Origin: Clostridiales bacterium
Lineage (GTDB): Bacteria > Bacillota > Clostridia > Caldicoprobacterales > DTU083
Reading direction: 5' to 3'
NCBI GenBank assembly: GCA_012839095.1
Contig: DUOA01000092.1
Location: forward strand, 1-37,692
Length of the DNA stretch: 37,692 bases
The notes beneath the pieces are model-generated. The model was given only the letters and a program-made list of their open reading frames with translations. It had not been told where the DNA came from and did not search any database. How positions within the stretch are numbered: position 1 is the first letter of the stretch; every line of letters begins with the position of its first letter. This document shows positions 503-15,101 of this stretch, in pieces. A program made the position numbers and the translations under genes.

Positions 503-1159
503 TCATTCCTTGCCGTTCAGGTATCGTTCCAGCTTACGCTTCACTCTCTGCAGTGCATTGTCAATGGATTTGACATGCCGATCCAGATCTGCGGCGATTT
601 CCTGATAGGACTTACCCTGCAGATAGGAGGTAAGAACTTCCCACTCCAGATCGCTGAGCAGCTCTCCGATTTTGCATTCGATGCTGTTGAAGTCCTCCTG
701 GCTGATGATAAGTTCCTCAGGATCGGAAATCCGGGTGCCGGATAATACATCCATCAATGTGCGGTCGGATTCTTCATCATATATGGGTTTGTTAAGAGAA
801 ATATAGGAGTTCAGCGGAATATGCTTCTGACGGGTGGCAGTCTTAATGGCAGTAATGATCTGCCTGGTAATGCAAAGCTCGGCAAAGGCCCGGAAGGAGG
901 AAAGCTTGTCCGACCGGAAATCGCGAATGGCTTTGTAAAGGCCTATCATGCCTTCCTGGACGATGTCTTCCCGGTCTGCCCCGATAAGGAAATAGGATCG
1001 TGCCTTAGCCCGCACAAAATTGCGGTATTTGTGAATGAGATACTCAAGTGCCTGCTCATCGCCGATACGGGCGTCTTCCACCACCTGCTCATCCGGTATT
1101 GCATCGTAATTGCTGTAATAGTCTTTTGTTGCCGGTAACTCCACCAGTTTCTCCCCCAT
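503..1159 (-). CDS. sigH: RNA polymerase sporulation sigma factor SigH
   Basis: This is a sigma-70 family factor of the SigH (Spo0H) type, which directs transition-state and early sporulation genes. Region 2 is seen as ALEYLIHKYRNFVRAKARSY and DREDIVQEGMIGLYKAIRDF. Region 4 has the helix-turn-helix LQGKSYQEIAADL near the C terminus. The ATG at 1159 gives 218 residues, the usual SigH length. The open frame extends to a TTG at 1198, but the predicted transcription start (about 1196) falls inside that extension, so I reject it. The ATG has no Shine-Dalgarno directly before it. A short start-stop element lies just upstream at 1170-1175. The neighbours rae1, rlmB and mrnC are typical of clostridia and bacilli. 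Confidence 0.93.
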   Translation of the reverse strand: MGEKLVELPATKDYYSNYDAIPDEQVVEDARIGDEQALEYLIHKYRNFVRAKARSYFLIGADREDIVQEGMIGLYKAIRDFRSDKLSSFRAFAELCITRQIITAIKTATRQKHIPLNSYISLNKPIYDEESDRTLMDVLSGTRISDPEELIISQEDFNSIECKIGELLSDLEWEVLTSYLQGKSYQEIAADLDRHVKSIDNALQRVKRKLERYLNGKE

Positions 1160-1202
1160 TGCTGCTGCATTACATATCTGCGTAATCCTACCAATCAAAT
1201 TG

Positions 1203-1232
1203 ATTATACATTACATAATCTGTACAAGTCAA
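1203..1232 (-). promoter_or_regulatory. Sigma-A promoter of sigH
   Basis: On the minus strand TTGACT (1227-1232) and TATAAT (1203-1208) are separated by 18 bp. The start point should be near 1196, leaving a leader of about 37 nt. The promoter lies directly after, and nearly touches, the rae1 stop codon, so sigH can be expressed independently of the upstream genes. Confidence 0.75.
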
Positions 1233-1233
1233 G

Positions 1234-1755
1234 CTATCTTTGCCTTCTCCAGCGCTCCAGTTTTTCAAGGGTTTCAGGGCCCACCCGGTCTCCCAGGAGA
1301 TTGGTTTTCGGGTGGTGTTTTTCCAGATATTCACTGTTTATCCTTTTACGAACAAGTCTGACCTGTTCAAGCAGCTCCCGGGCAGAAATCCTTACTGCCC
1401 CCTGTGACAGTACCATGGTCTGCTGCAGAAAATCGGAAGTAGCCACAATAACATGCATATTTTTCTGAATTCCTGCAGTCCAGCGCTCTATGTAATGATC
1501 GGCGGTCTCATTTTCCCGGGTATAGACCACCTCTATATTACCTGCCCTTTCTGTTTTCTCCAGGCCTCCCTGTATCATATGGGCATCAAAAACAACAATA
1601 ACCCGGAGGCCTTTGTAACCCTGGAAATCCTGCAGAATTTCCAGCAATGCATACCTGGCGTCCTCCAGGCTGTAATCCGCAATCCTCTTAAGATCCGGCC
1701 AGGCATGTATGATATTGTATCCGTCCACCAAAAGTATCTCCTGCAAACCCCTCAC
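1234..1755 (-). CDS. rae1: NYN-domain ribonuclease Rae1 (YacP family)
   Basis: This is a PIN-like NYN-domain endoribonuclease. In Bacillus subtilis the family member Rae1 cleaves mRNA in the ribosomal A site. The N-terminal strand carries the acidic motif ILLVDGYNIIHAW. VIVVFDAH and the later IVATSDFLQQ supply the further acidic residues of the fold. The C terminus is basic. I choose GTG at 1755 (173 residues, near the roughly 170 of YacP). It lies one base after the rlmB stop and is preceded by GAGAGG inside the rlmB end, which implies translational coupling. The ATG at 1782 lies inside rlmB. A TTG nine bases downstream of the GTG is an alternative start. Confidence 0.88.
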   Translation of the reverse strand: MRGLQEILLVDGYNIIHAWPDLKRIADYSLEDARYALLEILQDFQGYKGLRVIVVFDAHMIQGGLEKTERAGNIEVVYTRENETADHYIERWTAGIQKNMHVIVATSDFLQQTMVLSQGAVRISARELLEQVRLVRKRINSEYLEKHHPKTNLLGDRVGPETLEKLERWRRQR

Positions 1756-1756
1756 C

Positions 1757-2593
1757 CTAACCTCTCTGTCTGACCACCTCATACATCAGTATCCCGGCCG
1801 CTACCGAAGCATTCAGGGATTCGATCCGTCCCTTTAAGGGGATGCTGACCAGAAAATCGCACTTTTCCCTGACCAGCCGTCCGAGGCCCCTTCCCTCACT
1901 GCCGATAACAAGGGCAATGGGGCCGGTAAGATCCTGAGCGGTATAGGGCGAGCCCTCCGGATCGGCCCCCGCAATCCAGATGCCCTGTTTTTTCAAATCC
2001 TCCAGCAGCCTGGCCAGATTGGTCACCCTGCCGACGGGCATATATTCCACGGCACCCGCCGACGCCTTAATGGCTGCAGGTGTCAGTCCCGCTGATCTCC
2101 GTTTGGGAATAATGACTCCATGGGCGCCGCAGCATTCAGCTGTCCGCATAACAGCCCCCAGGTTATGGGGATCGGTGATTTCATCCAGTATTATCAGGAA
2201 AGGAGCTTCTCCCCTTTCTCCGGCAGCTTCGAGCATTTCTTCCACTTCTGCATACTTATATGGGGTAACATAGGCAATAACTCCCTGGTGCGCACCGGAA
2301 AGGGATATTTCATCCAGCCGCTGCCTGTCTATCTCCTGAATGACAGTTCCGCTCTCCCCGGCTCTTTTCACTATCTCCCGGATGGAGCCCTCACTGCTGC
2401 CGCGGGCTATCAGCAGTTTCTCCACCGTACGGCCGGAGCGTAAAGCCTCCAAAACCGGATTTCTCCCCTCTATACGGTTCTCCGGTGCATCAGCTTCGTT
2501 AACCCTGCTGTCTTTTGGAAAGCCGGCATCATCCTTTTTATGCATCTGCTTCCTTCTGCCGCTTTTTTTGAAGTTCCTGTCAAGATCTTTCAT
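1757..2593 (-). CDS. rlmB: 23S rRNA (guanosine-2'-O-)-methyltransferase RlmB (SpoU/TrmH family)
   Basis: This is an AdoMet-dependent 2'-O-ribose methyltransferase of the SPOUT fold, expected to modify 23S rRNA. All three SpoU motifs are visible: EITDPHNLGAVMRTAE (motif 1), IALVIGSEGRGL (motif 2) and IPLKGRIESLNASVAAG (motif 3, the knotted AdoMet site). A substrate-binding domain precedes them, beginning IEGRNPVLEALRSGRTVEKL. The start is ATG at 2593, which has GGAGG four bases upstream. An in-frame ATG seven codons earlier lacks a site. The first 30 residues are basic and low complexity. It lies between mrnC and rae1 on the same strand. Confidence 0.93.
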   Translation of the reverse strand: MKDLDRNFKKSGRRKQMHKKDDAGFPKDSRVNEADAPENRIEGRNPVLEALRSGRTVEKLLIARGSSEGSIREIVKRAGESGTVIQEIDRQRLDEISLSGAHQGVIAYVTPYKYAEVEEMLEAAGERGEAPFLIILDEITDPHNLGAVMRTAECCGAHGVIIPKRRSAGLTPAAIKASAGAVEYMPVGRVTNLARLLEDLKKQGIWIAGADPEGSPYTAQDLTGPIALVIGSEGRGLGRLVREKCDFLVSIPLKGRIESLNASVAAGILMYEVVRQRG

Positions 2594-2623
2594 ATGGCCT
2601 CCATAATGTTTCACACTCTAAAT

Positions 2624-3091
2624 TCAATTCTCCGGTTTGCCGGCTTTGGCAGACTGATTCTGATCCGCCTTTGCAGCCAGCATATATCCAATTAACTGGC
2701 ATAAGCGCTCTTCCTGTCTTGTAAGATACAGAAAGCCCAGCAATGACTCAAAGCCGGTGGCCCGTCTGTAATCAGCAACATCGGCGTTTTTCGGAATTGT
2801 GCCCGATTTGGCGTTGCGTCCCCGGCGGACAATGTCTTTTTCTTCCTCTGTCAGCTGCTCGTCTATTTGATACAGTGTCTCGGACTGGGATTCCGCTTTT
2901 ACATAGGATATGGATTTTATATGCAGTTGATGCACCGGGACATCATGGACATGAATCAGATAGGTCCTTACAAACAGATCGTAAACAGTATCACCTATAT
3001 AGGCCAATACCAAAGGATTCATCATTCGCACATGTTCCTTGTCCAATGCCTTTCCTGTTGCAGTTTCTATGTAATCCAGCAATCCTCTCAA
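2624..3091 (-). CDS. mrnC: Mini-ribonuclease III (MrnC)
   Basis: This is an RNase III catalytic domain without the double-stranded-RNA-binding domain. In Bacillus it matures 23S rRNA ends. The signature LAYIGDTVYDLFVRTYLI and the family block RRGRNAKSGTIPKNADVADYR are both present, followed by FESLLGFLYL. The open frame begins at an ATG at 3166, but a promoter -10 at 3152-3157 would start transcription downstream of it. TTG at 3091 has GGGGTG five bases upstream and gives 155 residues, close to the family's 130-145. GTG at 3100 is an alternative. The gene is the probable first member of an mrnC-rlmB-rae1 operon. Confidence 0.88.
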   Translation of the reverse strand: MRGLLDYIETATGKALDKEHVRMMNPLVLAYIGDTVYDLFVRTYLIHVHDVPVHQLHIKSISYVKAESQSETLYQIDEQLTEEEKDIVRRGRNAKSGTIPKNADVADYRRATGFESLLGFLYLTRQEERLCQLIGYMLAAKADQNQSAKAGKPEN

Positions 3092-3151
3092 ATTTTTCAC
3101 CCCAGGCTTAATTAGTACTGATCCGGGCGCTGCCTCAGATTGAATATGCAT

Positions 3152-3181
3152 ATTATAGCATTCCACTGTTTATATTGTATA
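3152..3181 (-). promoter_or_regulatory. Probable promoter of mrnC-rlmB-rae1
   Basis: On the minus strand TATACA (3176-3181), an 18-bp spacer and a perfect TATAAT (3152-3157) are seen. The predicted start near 3146 argues for a GTG or TTG start codon of mrnC at 3100 or 3091. Confidence 0.5.
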
Positions 3182-3320: not shown

Positions 3321-3408
3321 CAATTGAAAAAGGCAAACCTGTCGAAAGGCAGGGACGCAAAGCTGCAAGTCTAAAGTGGAGACACCAGGACGGTTGAGCT
3401 GCCAATTG
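3321..3408 (+). promoter_or_regulatory. Cyclic-di-GMP-I (GEMM-I) riboswitch
   Basis: The conserved GEMM-I core is present. GGCAAACC is followed by a hairpin CCTGTC-GAAA-GGCAGG with a GNRA tetraloop (3338-3353), then the hallmark GGGACGCAAAGC (3352-3363). A second arm has stem GTCT/AGAC and ends AGGACGGTTGAGCTGCC. CAATTG at 3321-3326 and again at 3403-3408 can close the element. GEMM-I aptamers bind c-di-GMP. The gene that follows encodes a c-di-GMP phosphodiesterase domain plus a c-di-GMP-binding PilZ domain, which strongly supports the call. The second arm is divergent from the commonest consensus. Confidence 0.87.
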
Positions 3409-3509
3409 AGTCACAAACGGGGATACCTTACCCTCCTATCGTCCTTCACTTCATTAAGCATAGTGTTCCTGTGGCCGCAGATTGTCTTTTCAATCGGGGA
3501 GGAAATGCC

Positions 3510-4802
3510 ATGTATGTACTCTTCAGCACTTTACCCAATGAAAAGAGCAGCAAAAATTCCACAGAAGAGACTGAAAAACGCAGACACCTGCAGCTTGATA
3601 TAAAAAAGGCAATTGCACTGGGGCAGTTTCGCATACATCTTCAGCCTTTGGTCAACCTTGATACCTGCGAAATCACCGGAGCAGAAGCCTTTATAAGATG
3701 GGACCACCATATTTACGGCACTCTTCTTCCTGAAGAATTTATTTCCATTGCCGAAGAGTCCCAGTTTATTTTGGAAATGGGAGACTGGGTGCTTAATGAA
3801 GTGTGCCGCCACTATAAGAACTGGATGAAAGAAGATCTGCCTCCCGTTAAAATATCAATAAATGTATCCAGCCTGCAATTTCTTCAGGAGGATTTTGCCG
3901 ATCGCATTTTGAATATAATCAGTTCCCACGGGCTGAATCCGGACTTTCTGGTAATTGAAATACTTGAAAGAGTGATGATACGTGATTATCAGCAGATGAA
4001 ATTATCCATAGATAAGCTGCATGAAATGGGAATAAAGGTTGCCCTGGATGATTTCGGCACAGGCTTTTCTTCGATGGAATACCTGAGCAGACTCAATATT
4101 GACATACTGAAGATAGATCAGCTGTTTATACAGACCATCCCCCAGGACAAAACCAATTCTGCCATTACCGATGCTATTCTGACGCTGGCAGAAAAACTGG
4201 GCATTCAGGCCATAGCAGAGGGGATCGAAACAGATGAACAACTGGAGTTTCTGAGAAAGTGCGGCTGTCAGTTCGGGCAGGGTTACTACTTCAGTGCCCC
4301 GCTGCCTCCTGCTGAATGCAAGAAGCTGATTCAAGCCAGGTACCTGATACCGGAGCCGTCCCCCCGGACTCCTGTTGATATACGTGATAAGCGGGCTTAT
4401 CCGCGGTATAAGTTTCATCAGTACCTGGAAGCATCAATGACTATTCTTAAGTACGATGGGCAGGACGTCCATGTCGGCAGTACCCTTGTGCTGATTCATG
4501 ACATAAGCGGAGGAGGGCTGTGTTTCTATTCGACAGTCAGTCTGCCCCTTAAGAGTAATCTCTTCATCCAGTTTTCAACATCCCTGCTGGGCAGACACAT
4601 TAATCTGTACGGTACACCGGTCTGGGGAAAGGAAGTGCAGGAGGGACTCTTCAAGTACGGTGTGCGATTCCGCATAAGTGAACAGGAGCGATTCAAACTG
4701 CTGAAATTGATAGAGGAAATCCGGTCCCGGGCAGACAGGGGAGACACAATTCTGGAAGGTGACTTCACCCTGCTGTCTCCTTACAGCTATTTTAATATCT
4801 GA
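3510..4802 (+). CDS. EAL-PilZ c-di-GMP phosphodiesterase/effector
   Basis: This two-domain cytoplasmic protein (430 residues) should hydrolyse c-di-GMP and sense it. The EAL domain (about residues 27-270) has EAFIRW in place of EALxRW but keeps the metal and catalytic residues: INVSSLQF, IEILE, ALDDFGTGFSS, LKID, AEGIET and GQGYYFSAPLP. The PilZ domain (about 285-410) has RAYPRYKF (RxxxR) and HDISGGG (D/NxSxxG), both needed for c-di-GMP binding. There is no membrane segment or GGDEF domain. The start is ATG 3510 with GGGGAGG seven bases upstream; the open frame extends back to a GTG at 3471 without a site. It is preceded by a c-di-GMP-I riboswitch and followed by a terminator, so it is a single-gene unit with likely feedback. 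Confidence 0.93.
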   Translation: MYVLFSTLPNEKSSKNSTEETEKRRHLQLDIKKAIALGQFRIHLQPLVNLDTCEITGAEAFIRWDHHIYGTLLPEEFISIAEESQFILEMGDWVLNEVCRHYKNWMKEDLPPVKISINVSSLQFLQEDFADRILNIISSHGLNPDFLVIEILERVMIRDYQQMKLSIDKLHEMGIKVALDDFGTGFSSMEYLSRLNIDILKIDQLFIQTIPQDKTNSAITDAILTLAEKLGIQAIAEGIETDEQLEFLRKCGCQFGQGYYFSAPLPPAECKKLIQARYLIPEPSPRTPVDIRDKRAYPRYKFHQYLEASMTILKYDGQDVHVGSTLVLIHDISGGGLCFYSTVSLPLKSNLFIQFSTSLLGRHINLYGTPVWGKEVQEGLFKYGVRFRISEQERFKLLKLIEEIRSRADRGDTILEGDFTLLSPYSYFNI

Positions 4803-4941: not shown

Positions 4942-6312
4942 ATGGATAAGCACGCCGTTCGCAACAGATATGCCTTTGGACTGGGCACCATAGGCAGGGA
5001 TATGGTCTATGCTCTTGTCAGCATGTATCTGATATTTTACCTGACGGATATTCTGGATCTGCCCAACTCCATACTTTGGTGGCTGAACTTTATACTCATG
5101 GGAGGACGTATCTTTGATGCAGTCAACGATCCCTTTATGGGAGTCATAGTTGACAATACCCGTACACGATTTGGCAAATTCAAGCCCTGGATTGCCTCAG
5201 GCGCATTGCTGACAGGTCTGGCTGTAATACTTCTCTTTACCGACTTTGGCATAAGCGGCCCGGGCTATGTAGTCCTGTTTGCCTTTTCCTATCTTTTCTG
5301 GGAAGTATCCTATACTGCCAATGATATCTCCTATTGGTCCATGCTGCCCTCTCTCAGCGTGAGTCAGAAGGAGCGGGAGAAAATCGGCGCCTTTGCCAAG
5401 ATTTGCGCCAATGTTGGTTTATTCACAGTGGTGGCGGGAATCGTGCCCATAACAACCGCACTTGGCCAGGCATATGGAAGCATGAAAACAGCCTATACCG
5501 TTTTTGCTGCAGCTTTGGCAGTAATTATGTGCATAGGTCAGGCAGTCACCCTTTTTGGGGTAAAAGAGCACAAAGAGCTCTACCAGCATGAAAGCTCAAC
5601 TTCACTGAAAGGCATGGTAAAGGCCATTTTTCAGAACGATCAGCTGCTGTTCGTTGCAGTTTCCATGTCGCTTTTTATGATCGGCTATATGACAACCACC
5701 AGCTTTGGATTGTATTTCTTTAAATATGCATATGGAGACGAAGGCATGTATTCCATCTTTGCAGTAATTTTAGGCATATCTCAGATAACCGCCCTGGCTG
5801 TCTTTCCCCTGTTCAGCAGGCGATTCAACCGAAAAAGCATGTACTCTGCTGCAACTGCCATGGTGGTTGCCGGTTATGTTCTCTTCTTTTTCTCGCCGAT
5901 GGATATGCTATATATAGGCGCATCAGGCATTCTTATTTTTATAGGGCAGGCCTTCATTCAGCTTCTCATGCTGATGTTTCTGGCGGATACCGTGGAATAC
6001 GGCCAGTGGAAGCTGGGCAAGAGAAATGACAGCGTTACCTTTTCCCTCCAGCCTTTTATAAACAAGATGGGCGGTGCCCTGGCCAGCGGCATCGTGGGTA
6101 CCACGGTCATCCTGTCCGGCATAACCGACGCTGCAAGGCCTTCCGATGTAAGCCCTGAAGGACTGATGATGATGAAGGCAGCCATGCTGATTCTGCCCCT
6201 GATTTTAATTTTGATAAGTTATTTGCTGTACAGTAAAAAATACAGAATTGACGAGGTTATGTATGAGCAAATCCTTGAAGATCTCCGTGGGCGGGGAGGA
6301 ATTTCCCTATAG
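4942..6312 (+). CDS. GPH-family sugar:cation symporter (MelB-like)
   Basis: This is an integral membrane transporter of the glycoside-pentoside-hexuronide:cation symporter family (MFS superfamily), 456 residues with about twelve hydrophobic segments. The family signature after TM2 is clear: GRIFDAVNDPFMGVIVDNT then RTRFGKFKPW. A second conserved block, DTVEYGQWKLGKRNDS, lies in the C-terminal half. It would import a glycoside or oligosaccharide with a cation. It has its own promoter and AGGGGG ribosome binding site. No hydrolase is adjacent. Its last two codons CTA-TAG coincide with the last two codons of the convergent kinase gene, so there is no terminator between the two. The substrate cannot be inferred. 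Confidence 0.92.
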   Translation: MDKHAVRNRYAFGLGTIGRDMVYALVSMYLIFYLTDILDLPNSILWWLNFILMGGRIFDAVNDPFMGVIVDNTRTRFGKFKPWIASGALLTGLAVILLFTDFGISGPGYVVLFAFSYLFWEVSYTANDISYWSMLPSLSVSQKEREKIGAFAKICANVGLFTVVAGIVPITTALGQAYGSMKTAYTVFAAALAVIMCIGQAVTLFGVKEHKELYQHESSTSLKGMVKAIFQNDQLLFVAVSMSLFMIGYMTTTSFGLYFFKYAYGDEGMYSIFAVILGISQITALAVFPLFSRRFNRKSMYSAATAMVVAGYVLFFFSPMDMLYIGASGILIFIGQAFIQLLMLMFLADTVEYGQWKLGKRNDSVTFSLQPFINKMGGALASGIVGTTVILSGITDAARPSDVSPEGLMMMKAAMLILPLILILISYLLYSKKYRIDEVMYEQILEDLRGRGGISL

Positions 6313-7692
6313 GGATTGATTGGGCCCGTATGTAAGATTGGTTTTCTCCGTTGAGCGCTTGTCTTCATTTGTTTTAAAGTTGAAGCAAAGCAGAAACTCT
6401 GTCTCATACTCATCGCTGCGGAAACTGATGACTCCCTGATTCCTCTGGGTCAGCTCATTTACTATATACAGCCCGTATCCCCGTTCTCCTTCCAATTTGT
6501 CTTTGGTTGAATATTTATATTCAAAAATATGTTTTTGATGAACTTCCGGGATTTTGCTTCCGTTATTGGAGATGGATATGCAGCATTGGTCGTCTTCCTC
6601 AAAGACGGAAAGGGAGACGATTTTCTTTTTATCGGGCGGATTCATCATTACGGCATCAAAGGCATTGTCCACAATGTTCCCTATTATGGTGGTCAGATCA
6701 ACGTCATCCACCGATATGTCCTCCAGAGTCCGTTCCACATCCACTTCAAAATAAATATCATTTTTGGCAGCAAGACTGTTTTTGACAGCCAGCAAGCCGT
6801 CGAGGTACTTGTTGCCGGTATTGTAAAAATGGAGTCCGACCGTGAGTTCATTGCCTGTCAGTTTAAGTGCATAGGTTCTGAACTCATCGATGGCCTCCAG
6901 ATCCCTCATGGTGCAAAGTGCAACCAGTGTGCTTATATGATTTTTGTAATCATGCTTCTCCTTTCTCACCGCATCAACAATCAGTTCCATGTGTTTGGAA
7001 TACTCCTGCTGAAGCTTCAGCTGGTTTTGAATATCCATCCATTTGATGCGTTCCTTTGTGTCGAGAACTCCAAGGAGAACCACCGAAAGGAACATGAGAC
7101 CGCTTATTATAAGTACAGCGGTATCATATATGTATTTTACAAGATTGCTGTAAAGCACACTTATTAAGAAAATAACCAGCGGAAGTAAGGTCACGGAAGA
7201 ATTCTTTGTTCTGAAATAGTGCTTCTCAAACAGAGCGGGCCTTAACTGAGGCCTGGCAAGCAGGATAAGGGCTGCGGTCTGAATGGGCCTTATTATCAGC
7301 AGGGCCTTCATCTGAAGCAGGTCATCAGCCATTGCTTCAGAAAAAGAAACTCCCATGAAATAAAGGACGGGTATGGAAACCAGTGTTTCTGAAATTCCAT
7401 AAATCAAAAATACAAGGATATTTGCTGTAATGGACAGATATAAGCTGGTCTTGGTTATATAGGATATAATTAAAATATTGAAAACAATATACACCAGTGT
7501 AAGGGGCAGCCCCCGGTAAGCTACTAAGAAATAGGACAATACCAGGTATAAAATGATATAGATCAATGATTGGTGCCAATGTTTCCGGATAAAATCCGGC
7601 ATTCCTACCATGTACAGATACAGAAACAGCAATGTGGCGCTTTCCAGAGCGATAAAAACAATCTGATTTATAAAAAACAGCAAAACATCCAT
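6307..7692 (-). CDS. AgrC-like membrane sensor histidine kinase (GHKL)
   Basis: This 461-residue kinase has six or seven membrane helices (about residues 1-210), a short coiled region, the phosphoacceptor motif EKHDYKNH (His about 247), the N box NIVDNAFDAV (about 339) and a G box ERGYGLYIVNEL. The SPOB-like H box and GHKL ATPase are those of AgrC/ComD-type kinases, which sense peptides and usually signal to LytTR response regulators. The start is ATG 7692 with GAGGGG seven bases upstream. No response regulator or pheromone gene is present in the window, so its partner must be elsewhere. Three 21-bp-spaced repeats resembling AgrA/ComE boxes lie upstream. The signal is unknown. Confidence 0.88.
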   Translation of the reverse strand: MDVLLFFINQIVFIALESATLLFLYLYMVGMPDFIRKHWHQSLIYIILYLVLSYFLVAYRGLPLTLVYIVFNILIISYITKTSLYLSITANILVFLIYGISETLVSIPVLYFMGVSFSEAMADDLLQMKALLIIRPIQTAALILLARPQLRPALFEKHYFRTKNSSVTLLPLVIFLISVLYSNLVKYIYDTAVLIISGLMFLSVVLLGVLDTKERIKWMDIQNQLKLQQEYSKHMELIVDAVRKEKHDYKNHISTLVALCTMRDLEAIDEFRTYALKLTGNELTVGLHFYNTGNKYLDGLLAVKNSLAAKNDIYFEVDVERTLEDISVDDVDLTTIIGNIVDNAFDAVMMNPPDKKKIVSLSVFEEDDQCCISISNNGSKIPEVHQKHIFEYKYSTKDKLEGERGYGLYIVNELTQRNQGVISFRSDEYETEFLLCFNFKTNEDKRSTEKTNLTYGPNQSL

Positions 7693-7731: not shown

Positions 7732-7807
7732 TTTATATCCATTCATCAAAACTTAAACTTACTGCAGCAACGCTGTACCATACTGTTTCAATTCTACAGG
7801 TTACTGT
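7732..7807 (-). promoter_or_regulatory. Triple LytTR-like operator and -10 box before kinase gene
   Basis: Read on the minus strand, ACAGTAACC (7799-7807), ACAGTATGG (7778-7786) and GCAGTAAGT (7757-7765) are direct repeats. Each starts exactly 21 bp after the last, with 12-bp gaps. LytTR regulators such as AgrA and ComE bind 9-bp direct repeats (AgrA consensus ACAGTTAAG) with 12-bp spacing. A TATAAA -10 (7732-7737) follows with no good -35, as expected for an activated promoter. Regulation of this kinase by a LytTR protein is inferred. Confidence 0.6.
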
Positions 7808-7854
7808 CAAATCCTCTTCAAATTTGAAAAAAATTCTATGATATGTAAATTTTA

Positions 7855-8793
7855 TCAGGCCTTTGATTTCTGGTCGGCCAGGGTATTGCGCTCCCAGAAT
7901 ACCCCCGAGGTATAACCCTGAATGGATGAATCCTGTTCAGCCATCTCCAGCCTCTTTTCAGCCCATATGCAGTACAGTTCATTCTGTTCTATACCAATAT
8001 ATTTTCTCCCCAGCTTTTTTGCAACCACGCTGGTTGTACCTGAGCCCAAAAAGGGATCCAGGATCAGATCTCCCGGCCGGGAACTGGCCAAAACCAGCTT
8101 GGCTATCAGCTTTTCCGGTTTTTGTGCAGGATGAGCGGTATTCTCAGGCATGGACCAGAAGGGGATGGTAATATCATCCCAGAAGTTGGACGGGCAGGTG
8201 TCCCTGTAATTGCCATTCCGGCTTTCAATCCAGTCCTTCGGTTTTCCGTTTTCCCTGTAGGGGGCAATTACCCTCCTGCGTATCATCACAGCATCCAGAT
8301 CGAATACAAATTGATTGGATACAGTTGCATACCAGATATCCTCCATGCCGTTTTTCCAGTTGGTTTTGGCACCCCTTCCCTTTTCCCGCTGCCAGGTAAT
8401 TCTGTTCCGAACAATTGTTTTTTCCATCAGCACCTGCCCGATGATCAGGCTGGACTGCCAATCGCAGCATACATATATGCTCCCGGTATCCTTCATCAAA
8501 GGCAGCAGCAGATTCAGCCAGCTTTCAGTATAGGATCGGTATTCCTCAGCTTTCTTTTTCTGAAACACCTTGCCATGATACTGCTTGGTCAGATTATAGG
8601 GGGGATCGACTATCATAAGATCTATGCTGCCAGGGGGAAGAAATGGGGCAACCTGAAACAAATCCCCGCAGATTGTTGAATTAATCAGCCGGTCTTTACA
8701 AACAGGCCTGTCAATTATTTTACACTTGTCCAGGTAATGCCTGCCTTCTTCTACACCGATATCAATGGTTTTGTTTCTGGGCGACTTTTTCAT
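7855..8793 (-). CDS. Orphan type II DNA (adenine-N6) methyltransferase, beta class
   Basis: This is a 312-residue site-specific DNA methyltransferase. The catalytic motif IV DPPYNL (about residues 63-68) precedes the AdoMet-binding motif I DPFLGSGTTSVVAKKLGRKY (about 245-264). That order defines the beta class, and DPPY favours adenine-N6 over cytosine-N4. A target-recognition region lies between, including IESRNGNYRDTC. No restriction endonuclease or specificity gene is nearby, so it looks like an orphan, possibly epigenetic, enzyme. It starts 23 bases after the B12-activation-like gene with GAGAGGA upstream, so it is probably the third gene of that operon. The recognition site cannot be read from the sequence. 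Confidence 0.9.
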   Translation of the reverse strand: MKKSPRNKTIDIGVEEGRHYLDKCKIIDRPVCKDRLINSTICGDLFQVAPFLPPGSIDLMIVDPPYNLTKQYHGKVFQKKKAEEYRSYTESWLNLLLPLMKDTGSIYVCCDWQSSLIIGQVLMEKTIVRNRITWQREKGRGAKTNWKNGMEDIWYATVSNQFVFDLDAVMIRRRVIAPYRENGKPKDWIESRNGNYRDTCPSNFWDDITIPFWSMPENTAHPAQKPEKLIAKLVLASSRPGDLILDPFLGSGTTSVVAKKLGRKYIGIEQNELYCIWAEKRLEMAEQDSSIQGYTSGVFWERNTLADQKSKA

Positions 8794-12922: not shown

Positions 12923-13852
12923 CTACCTCCAATACTTTCTGAACTTAAGCGGTGTTATGTTTTCGTGCTTCTTAAAGGTCTGAATAAAATGGGAGGCATT
13001 CTCGAAGCCTACTCTTTGCGCGATTTCATAAACCGGCAGGGCTGTTTCCTTCAGCATGGCTTTGCCCTGACTCAGACGGTATTTGATCAGATACTCATTG
13101 GGACTGTAGCCGGTATAAAGCTTGAACTGCCTGGATAAGTAGAATTTGCTTATGCACAGTTCTTCAGCCAGTTCATCCAGGGCAATCGGTTTCTGATACC
13201 GGTTCTCTATGATAGATACAGCCTTCTGAATCGTAGAAGGGATACCTCCGTCATTTTTTCTGCTGCTGACTGTCAGCAGCAATTCGGTTAAGATCTGTAT
13301 CAGAAGACAGGAGGTCCTGATATCGATACACTCATCATTATCCAGCAGGAGGCGGTGTATCTGAGAAATATGCTCAGGTATTTGGCTGGATGAGTCTATG
13401 GGAATGACAGGACCGGTATTATTCAGGATCTGATGAACATAGCCCCTGCTTTCACTGCCGTTAAAATGAATCCAGTCGAATATCCATATATTCTCCTCCG
13501 AAGTGCTCCGGGCCGAACCCGATACTTCCCTCCCGGTGCTGCCGGAATCAGCTTTCTGTTTTGAATCGGTTCCATATACCTGTTCCTCTCTGCAGTCAAT
13601 AATGCAGACAGTGCCGGGACTCAAGGAATATACCTGATTTCTGTAGCTGAGGGTACCAAAACCGTCAATGGTGTAAATAAGCAGCATAGAATCATAGTCA
13701 CTGCGCCGGGTACAGTATTCAGACCCGTTTTTGAAATGCCCTGCCGATTGCAGGTAATAGAACAAGGACTTGGATACCATGCTGGGAGTATGTTCCTTGC
13801 TCCAGGAATTATCAAGCAGATGCATAGTAATATTCAATGTATCATCCCCCAT
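12923..13852 (-). CDS. AraC-family transcriptional regulator with cupin sensor domain
   Basis: The C-terminal 100 residues are a double helix-turn-helix AraC domain: ELAEELCISKFYLSRQFKLY and then YEIAQRVGFENASHFIQTFK. The N-terminal half is a cupin-like sugar-sensing domain (FGTLSYRNQVYSLSPGTVCI). An odd Ser/Gly-rich charged insertion (about residues 96-120) interrupts the cupin between two strands; the domain would be continuous without it. The gene is divergent from the UroD-like gene and upstream of the TIM-barrel and dehydrogenase genes, its probable targets. The frame opens with ATG 13852, but TTG 13837, eight bases after GGGGG, is an equally plausible start. Confidence 0.9.
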   Translation of the reverse strand: MGDDTLNITMHLLDNSWSKEHTPSMVSKSLFYYLQSAGHFKNGSEYCTRRSDYDSMLLIYTIDGFGTLSYRNQVYSLSPGTVCIIDCREEQVYGTDSKQKADSGSTGREVSGSARSTSEENIWIFDWIHFNGSESRGYVHQILNNTGPVIPIDSSSQIPEHISQIHRLLLDNDECIDIRTSCLLIQILTELLLTVSSRKNDGGIPSTIQKAVSIIENRYQKPIALDELAEELCISKFYLSRQFKLYTGYSPNEYLIKYRLSQGKAMLKETALPVYEIAQRVGFENASHFIQTFKKHENITPLKFRKYWR

Positions 13853-13880
13853 GGCAATATTCTTATATTTTTAGGCAACA

Positions 13881-13916
13881 AATAGTAATGATTTTGCATT
13901 GTTATTTATATATAAT
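13881..13916 (+). promoter_or_regulatory. Inverted repeat next to TATAAT in the AraC/UroD divergent region
   Basis: AATAGTAATG (13881-13890) and CATTGTTATT (13897-13906) form an imperfect ten-base inverted repeat around ATTTTG. A perfect TATAAT (13911-13916) follows, 63 bases before the UroD-like start. No good -35 is present. The repeat may be the operator of the AraC regulator encoded on the other strand. Confidence 0.4.
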
Positions 13917-13979
13917 GATAGCATGAAAAGAATATATTAACAAACGGTATGAAAAAAGGGCTTAGTGAGGAGATGAAGC

Positions 13980-15101
13980 ATGAGTATCAAACCTATTCGT
14001 GAAAAATGGAAGGGGACCATGACAGATCGGGAACGGTTTAATCGTCAGATGCGTTATCAACCTGTGGATCGCTGCTTCAATATGGAATTCGGATATTGGG
14101 ATGAAAACTTTAAAGAATGGCCTTTGTTCTATGAAAACAACATAACCAGTAACCATGAAGCGGATATCTTTTTCAATTTTGACAGGATTGAAGTCATTTC
14201 CGGCAGGGTCTGGCTGAACCCCTCTTTCAGATCAGAAGTTGTGGAAGAGACGGATACCACTCTAATAATGATGAATGGCGACGGCCTGCTGGCAGAGGTT
14301 CCCAAGGACGGCCACGACACCATACCCCATTATGTAAAGGCCTCCGTTGTCACCCCGGAGGATTGGAAACGCTGCAAGGAAGAGCGGTTACGCCTTGATG
14401 ATCCGGCGCGCATATTAGACATCGAGGCTTTGAAAAAGAGGCATCCTGCAGATCGCACATACCCCCTGGGAGTTGATTGCGGCTCCATGATCGGCAAAGT
14501 AAGGGACATGCTGACCTTCGAAGGGCTGGCATATGCCTGCTTTGATTATCCGGATATGGTAGAGGATATGGTGGAAACCTGCTGCCGGATGGTGGAACAT
14601 TTTCTGGATCAGGTGCTGCCCCATTTTGAATTTGATTTTGCTTCAGGCTGGGAGGATATTTGCTTTAAAAACGGCCCCATTGTTTCGGTGCCCTTCTTCC
14701 GGGATGTGGTTATGCCGCGCTATAAGCGAATCAGCAAAAAACTGAAAGCCCACGGCATCGATATCTGGTATACAGACTGCGACGGGGATGTTCGCCCCAT
14801 CCTGCCCTATTTGCTGGAGGGAGGCATTAACTGCCTGTTTCCCTTCGAAGTCAATGGCTGCTCCCATCCCGGCGAGCTGCTTGACCAATACGACGGACAG
14901 CTGCGGATCATGGGCGGGGTTGACAAGATTCAGCTGGGCAAGGGTCCGGAGGCAATAAAAGCATATCTGGAGACCCTGGTGCCCTATGTTGAAAGGGGAG
15001 GCTATATCCCCTTCTGCGATCACCGGTGTCCGCCCAATGTGAACCCGGAGGACTATTTGTACTATCTGGATCTGAAGGAAAAGATGTTTGGCATGAAATG
15101 A
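13980..15101 (+). CDS. Uroporphyrinogen decarboxylase-like protein (UroD/MtaA/CmuA superfamily)
   Basis: This 373-residue protein has the UroD TIM-barrel fold shared by uroporphyrinogen decarboxylase and corrinoid methyltransferases. Visible blocks are MTDRERFNRQMRYQPVDR at the N terminus, GLAYACFDYPDMVEDMVET, HFEFDFASGWEDICFKNGP, HGIDIWYTDCDGDVRPI and, at the C terminus, GGYIPFCDHRCPPNVNPED. The Asp/His/Cys residues at strand ends could hold zinc, as in methyltransferases of the family. It is not a heme gene by context: it sits opposite an AraC regulator and sugar enzymes. Such proteins recur in clostridial carbohydrate loci with unknown substrate. The start is ATG 13980 with GAGGAG seven bases upstream. 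A strong terminator follows, so it is a single-gene transcript. Confidence 0.85.
   Translation: MSIKPIREKWKGTMTDRERFNRQMRYQPVDRCFNMEFGYWDENFKEWPLFYENNITSNHEADIFFNFDRIEVISGRVWLNPSFRSEVVEETDTTLIMMNGDGLLAEVPKDGHDTIPHYVKASVVTPEDWKRCKEERLRLDDPARILDIEALKKRHPADRTYPLGVDCGSMIGKVRDMLTFEGLAYACFDYPDMVEDMVETCCRMVEHFLDQVLPHFEFDFASGWEDICFKNGPIVSVPFFRDVVMPRYKRISKKLKAHGIDIWYTDCDGDVRPILPYLLEGGINCLFPFEVNGCSHPGELLDQYDGQLRIMGGVDKIQLGKGPEAIKAYLETLVPYVERGGYIPFCDHRCPPNVNPEDYLYYLDLKEKMFGMK

Follow-up and report, generated by a model that had tools for sequence, protein, structure and literature searches.

Three CAGTA repeats at 21-bp phase before a conserved orphan AgrC-type kinase gene are most likely a chance coincidence and not a LytTR operator

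Upstream of an orphan AgrC-type kinase gene, the window (the whole stretch of 37,692 nucleotides that was analysed) carries three CAGTA repeats, which we regard as a chance, lineage-specific coincidence and not as a LytTR operator, with a probability of about 0.7. The repeats are most likely coincidental because no LytTR protein was detected in the genome and none of the eight related kinase genes keeps them. The part worth keeping is the kinase itself: it is conserved and orphan, and belongs to a genome with no detected LytTR protein and with an agrB-agrD pair elsewhere.

The sequence-only reading had described three repeats on the minus strand at exact 21-bp intervals, followed by a TATAAA box without a -35 and then by the kinase gene. 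This description was confirmed, all 9-mers being present at the exact spacing (Table 1); the minus strand reads ttgACAGTAACCtgtagaattgaaACAGTATGGtacagcgttgctGCAGTAAGTttaagttttgatgaatggaTATAAAtg, followed by the kinase ATG at 7692. The copies share the core CAGTA, five identical bases each, and lie in the 162-bp intergenic region that separates the methyltransferase gene from the kinase gene, where no AgrD-like short ORF was seen by eye directly upstream of the kinase. Copy 3 ends 19 bp before TATAAA and copy 2 ends 40 bp before it; a hexamer scan found no good -35 hexamer 15-19 bp from this box. To judge from the motifs, the real -10 need not be TATAAA. In the G006 orthologue, TTGTCA-17 bp-TATAAT directly follows the methyltransferase stop, and the TTTACA-16-TCAAAT of the window is a weaker element at the matching place. 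We also noted weak half-phase copies between the repeats (GTAGAA at 7797, ACAGCG at 7776), giving five elements with a phase of about 10.5 bp over 7757-7807. A structured RNA at the repeats was considered and rejected, Rfam giving no match there.

Table 1. Features of the kinase locus in the window
Feature	Sequence	Position	Strand	Basis
Orphan AgrC-type membrane histidine kinase, 461 aa, GHKL ATPase domain		6307..7692	minus	profiles, PDB, motifs
N6/N4 DNA methyltransferase, gene upstream of kinase		7855..8793	minus	N6_N4_Mtase 1.4e-42
Repeat copy 1	ACAGTAACC	7807-7799	minus	read from sequence; without counterpart in orthologues
Repeat copy 2	ACAGTATGG	7786-7778	minus	read from sequence; without counterpart in orthologues
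Repeat copy 3	GCAGTAAGT	7765-7757	minus	read from sequence; without counterpart in orthologues
Possible -10 without -35, putative	TATAAA	7737-7732	minus	sequence and hexamer scan
Alternative promoter-like site, weak, putative	TTTACA-16 bp-TCAAAT	7822..7849	minus	hexamer scan; upstream of repeats

How unusual is such a triple? The 162-bp intergenic region was dinucleotide-shuffled 4000 times, and identical 5-mer triples arose with P ~0.0005 at a spacing of exactly 21 bp, 0.001 at 20-22 bp and ~0.01 for any spacing of 10-40 bp; the first of these values speaks against coincidence. The pattern was noticed and not predicted, so that this local probability has to be set against every position and spacing at which a pattern could have caught the eye. 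Identical 5-mer triples with assorted spacings occur at about eight places in 47 kb of non-coding DNA of the host genome (some loci overlap), the background of arbitrary 5-mer triples being drawn from ~206 kb of partly overlapping sequence. Another non-coding triple at 21 bp, the low-complexity ATTTT, is found within the window. The exact CAGTA-containing triple was found once in the 31 genomes searched and once in its own genome. There, triples relaxed to at most three mismatches number 36 against 50 for a reversed-pattern control, and pairs with at most one mismatch 97 against 91. The genome scan for the motif at 21-bp phase thus returned no other exact triple and no excess of relaxed ones, and a regulon of similar sites was rejected, neither pairs nor triples rising above the control. 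Altogether, the triple is real and locally uncommon, yet no more than anyone reading through 37 kb could expect to come across.

The identity of the downstream gene as an orphan AgrC-type kinase is well borne out. The protein matches HATPase_c (7.5e-17) and HATPase_c_5 (1.7e-11), and the staphylococcal AgrC model covers most of it (residues 40-422, 4.8e-18). This match reaches 65.5 of 500 bits, far below the curated equivalog cut-off, and the protein is thus AgrC-like and not a staphylococcal AgrC; for the ATPase part alone, the DcuS/MalK model outscores the AgrC model. Among solved structures, it is closest to the kinase module of S. aureus AgrC, the best PDB match (1.2e-10). The protein combines an AgrC-like membrane region, a GHKL ATPase domain and an H-box, and the H-box KHDYKN, N-box GNIVDNAFDA and G-box GYGL are kept with small changes among family members. 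Unlike the S. aureus AgrC-AgrA system, the kinase has no agrA, agrB or agrD next to it, nor any adjacent response regulator, and no cognate AgrA-type LytTR regulator was found in a search of its own genome. By its sequence, it looks like a genuine, conserved and partnerless quorum-sensing receptor. Elsewhere in the window, a c-di-GMP-I-GGC riboswitch (3323-3407, plus strand, 71.3 bits) lies just upstream of a 443-aa ORF (3471-4802) that appears by eye to be of the EAL type.

Eight family relatives of the kinase were found at 51-60% identity, seven of them full-length or nearly so, the eighth being split; L061 and L062, close relatives from a contig scan, duplicate the G012 and G001 sequences. 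In the split orthologue (G001, L142:5608-7010), the break between the two frames falls near residue 309 and reflects either a genomic frameshift or an assembly error. Synteny is strong: in most relatives the kinase lies near the counterpart of block 503-3166 of the window, which by eye comprises sigma factor, YacP-like, RlmB-like and Mini-III-like genes, and in G004 and G006 the methyltransferase gene also directly precedes it. These comparisons show a kinase conserved in a housekeeping locus with its catalytic motifs kept. The repeats do not share this conservation. Comparison of the regions upstream of the eight orthologous kinases gave 0/8: no RCAGT pair at 20-22 bp was found in any of them, and the best triple scores 11-13 of 18 there vs 18 in the window. 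The compared regions are all from other genera, that of G004 has only ~40 bp of intergenic sequence and that of G010 is cut by a contig end, so that a young operator could escape this comparison.

This leads to the main rival explanation: a regulator outside the LytTR group, for instance of the OmpR/PhoB type, would use the repeats as an operator that arose recently in this lineage. The low local chance probability in the shuffles argues for it, as do the half-phase elements visible between the repeats and the presence in the genome of about 20 receiver domains, many of them in proteins of OmpR-type size. Operator turnover could moreover hide a young site, since the nearest relatives belong to other genera (51-60% kinase identity). 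However, the half-phase elements were chosen post hoc, the genome has no second site and the repeats are not conserved, and we hold this explanation to be unlikely.

The sequence-only reading had instead proposed that the kinase is autoregulated through binding of a LytTR response regulator of the AgrA/ComE type to the repeats. Its premise agrees with the literature: LytTR sites consist of 9-bp repeats with 12-bp spacers (PMC6193735; PMC2766830), a geometry that the three copies at exactly 21 bp reproduce, before an AgrC-type kinase gene. As in described LytTR regulatory systems, such repeats stand before an operon with a membrane protein; those operons, however, encode a LytTR regulator and have a pair of copies ~10 bp before a -35 (PMC6193735), whereas in the window there are three, and both a -35 and a regulator are lacking. 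From the operon tables of that study we computed a distance of 27-34 bp between the repeat end and the -10, against 19 or 40 bp to the putative -10 TATAAA of the window. S. aureus AgrA likewise differs in binding two repeats, the promoter-proximal ones being centred near -60 (PMC4227749). Every copy in the window reads GTA where the LytTR core is GTT. The LytTR consensus is [TA][AC][CA]GTTN[AG][TG], and the best pair of copies matches it at 15/18 positions, which is the level of shuffled sequence (mean 14.7, P 0.57).

The distribution of LytTR proteins points the same way. The LytTR domain (PF04397) had no match in the window genome, a metagenome-assembled genome of 2.74 Mb in 169 contigs that is 96% complete, so that a single LytTR gene may lie in the missing part; the same search was positive in 5/14 control genomes. 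In the family, LytTR is present in five of 13 genomes, the window genome included in the count (G001, G007, G009, G011 and G012), and absent from five of the nine that bear the kinase (G000, which is the window genome, G002, G004, G006 and G010). Presence of LytTR is not associated with presence of the window kinase across these genomes (4/9 with the kinase, 1/4 without; Fisher P 0.49). In the two with the clearest LytTR neighbourhood, the neighbour of the regulator is a small GHKL-like kinase distinct from that of the window (L137 in G001, L151 in G012). The orthologues that lack the repeats include four whose genomes carry LytTR. Autoregulation through a LytTR regulator is therefore not supported: the repeats are missing from the orthologues and no LytTR regulator was found in the genome, the two observations that had been named beforehand as speaking against it. 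With a chance-level consensus match, the wrong gap to the -10 and no other copies in the genome in addition, we reject a LytTR operator as highly improbable.

The closest precedent for such an operator comes from C. difficile, where the orphan AgrC-like kinase RgaS works with the unlinked VirR-like regulator RgaR, whose repeats have critical G residues at -51 and -72, 21 bp apart (PMC10602386). The two situations are alike in that an orphan AgrC-like kinase lies distant from agrB and agrD and that the AgrBD pair, agrB1D1 in C. difficile, is without its own AgrC and AgrA. They differ in that RgaR is VirR-like (LytTR-type) and uses paired repeats at several promoters (PMC10602386), whereas the window genome has a single site and yielded no LytTR protein. 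Distant relatives of the window kinase (30-35% identity) lie in agrD-agrC-agrB clusters of G049, G081 and G048 (L144, L147 and L149), none of which is adjoined by a response regulator. No LytTR was found anywhere in G048. It is present elsewhere in the genomes of G049, G081, G053 and others, and their kinases could thus use an unlinked LytTR partner, like RgaS with RgaR; for the window genome, this route seems closed. Finally, action of the repeats at the RNA level, within a leader transcribed from a true promoter upstream at 7849, would fit the promoter-like TTTACA-16-TCAAAT on their 5' side and the better promoter at the matching place in G006, but is very improbable given the missing Rfam match at the repeats and their lack of conservation.

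It had also been suggested that the regulator and the pheromone lie elsewhere in the genome. For the pheromone this held, a search for agrD/agrB-like genes having found a pair on contig C41; for the regulator it did not, as no LytTR regulator was found. The AgrB gene (G000:C41:13864-14430, 1.6e-38) is followed by an AgrD peptide, MARRIFAAAATLFTIIAAIASASACWIWMYQPEEPKSLQQ (46.8 bits vs TIGR04223), whose core lies around ACWIWMYQPEEP, and then by a gene for a GGDEF/HD-domain protein. In this locus (L129:7381-8634; G000:C41, ~13380-14633), agrB is preceded by a gene for a 158-aa membrane protein with no match in Pfam or NCBIfam, and proteins resembling it are encoded before agrB in further family genomes as well. 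We rejected the 158-aa protein as a truncated AgrC sensor, as it has no similarity to the window kinase. AgrD-like peptides also follow AgrB in G001, G007 and G012. Among family genomes, agrB is found in six of the nine with the kinase and in none of the four without it (one-sided Fisher P = 0.049, a value to be read with the relatedness of these genomes, which makes the counts non-independent, and their uneven completeness). Two response regulators of the Spo0A type are also encoded in the genome (L097:1483-2295 and L099:1483-2268).

In the explanation that we favour, the kinase would be made from an ordinary sigma-A-type promoter. It may sense a cyclic peptide from the agrB-agrD pair on the other contig, a putative pairing, and would phosphorylate a non-LytTR response regulator. 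A LytTR protein is an improbable partner for the kinase; as a guess, the partner may be one of the two Spo0A-like regulators. More broadly, a clade of Clostridia could have moved its Agr-type receptor kinase away from the LytTR (AgrA) output to another regulator, possibly Spo0A, with the three CAGTA copies as a lineage-specific operator in the present genome; this wider scenario is speculative and rather improbable.

The repeats themselves matter little, and they are a caution against deducing a LytTR operator from nothing more than LytTR-like spacing in front of an AgrC-like gene. The conserved AgrC-type kinases and the agrB-agrD genes found in genomes devoid of detected LytTR proteins make an alternative output of Agr signalling directly testable.
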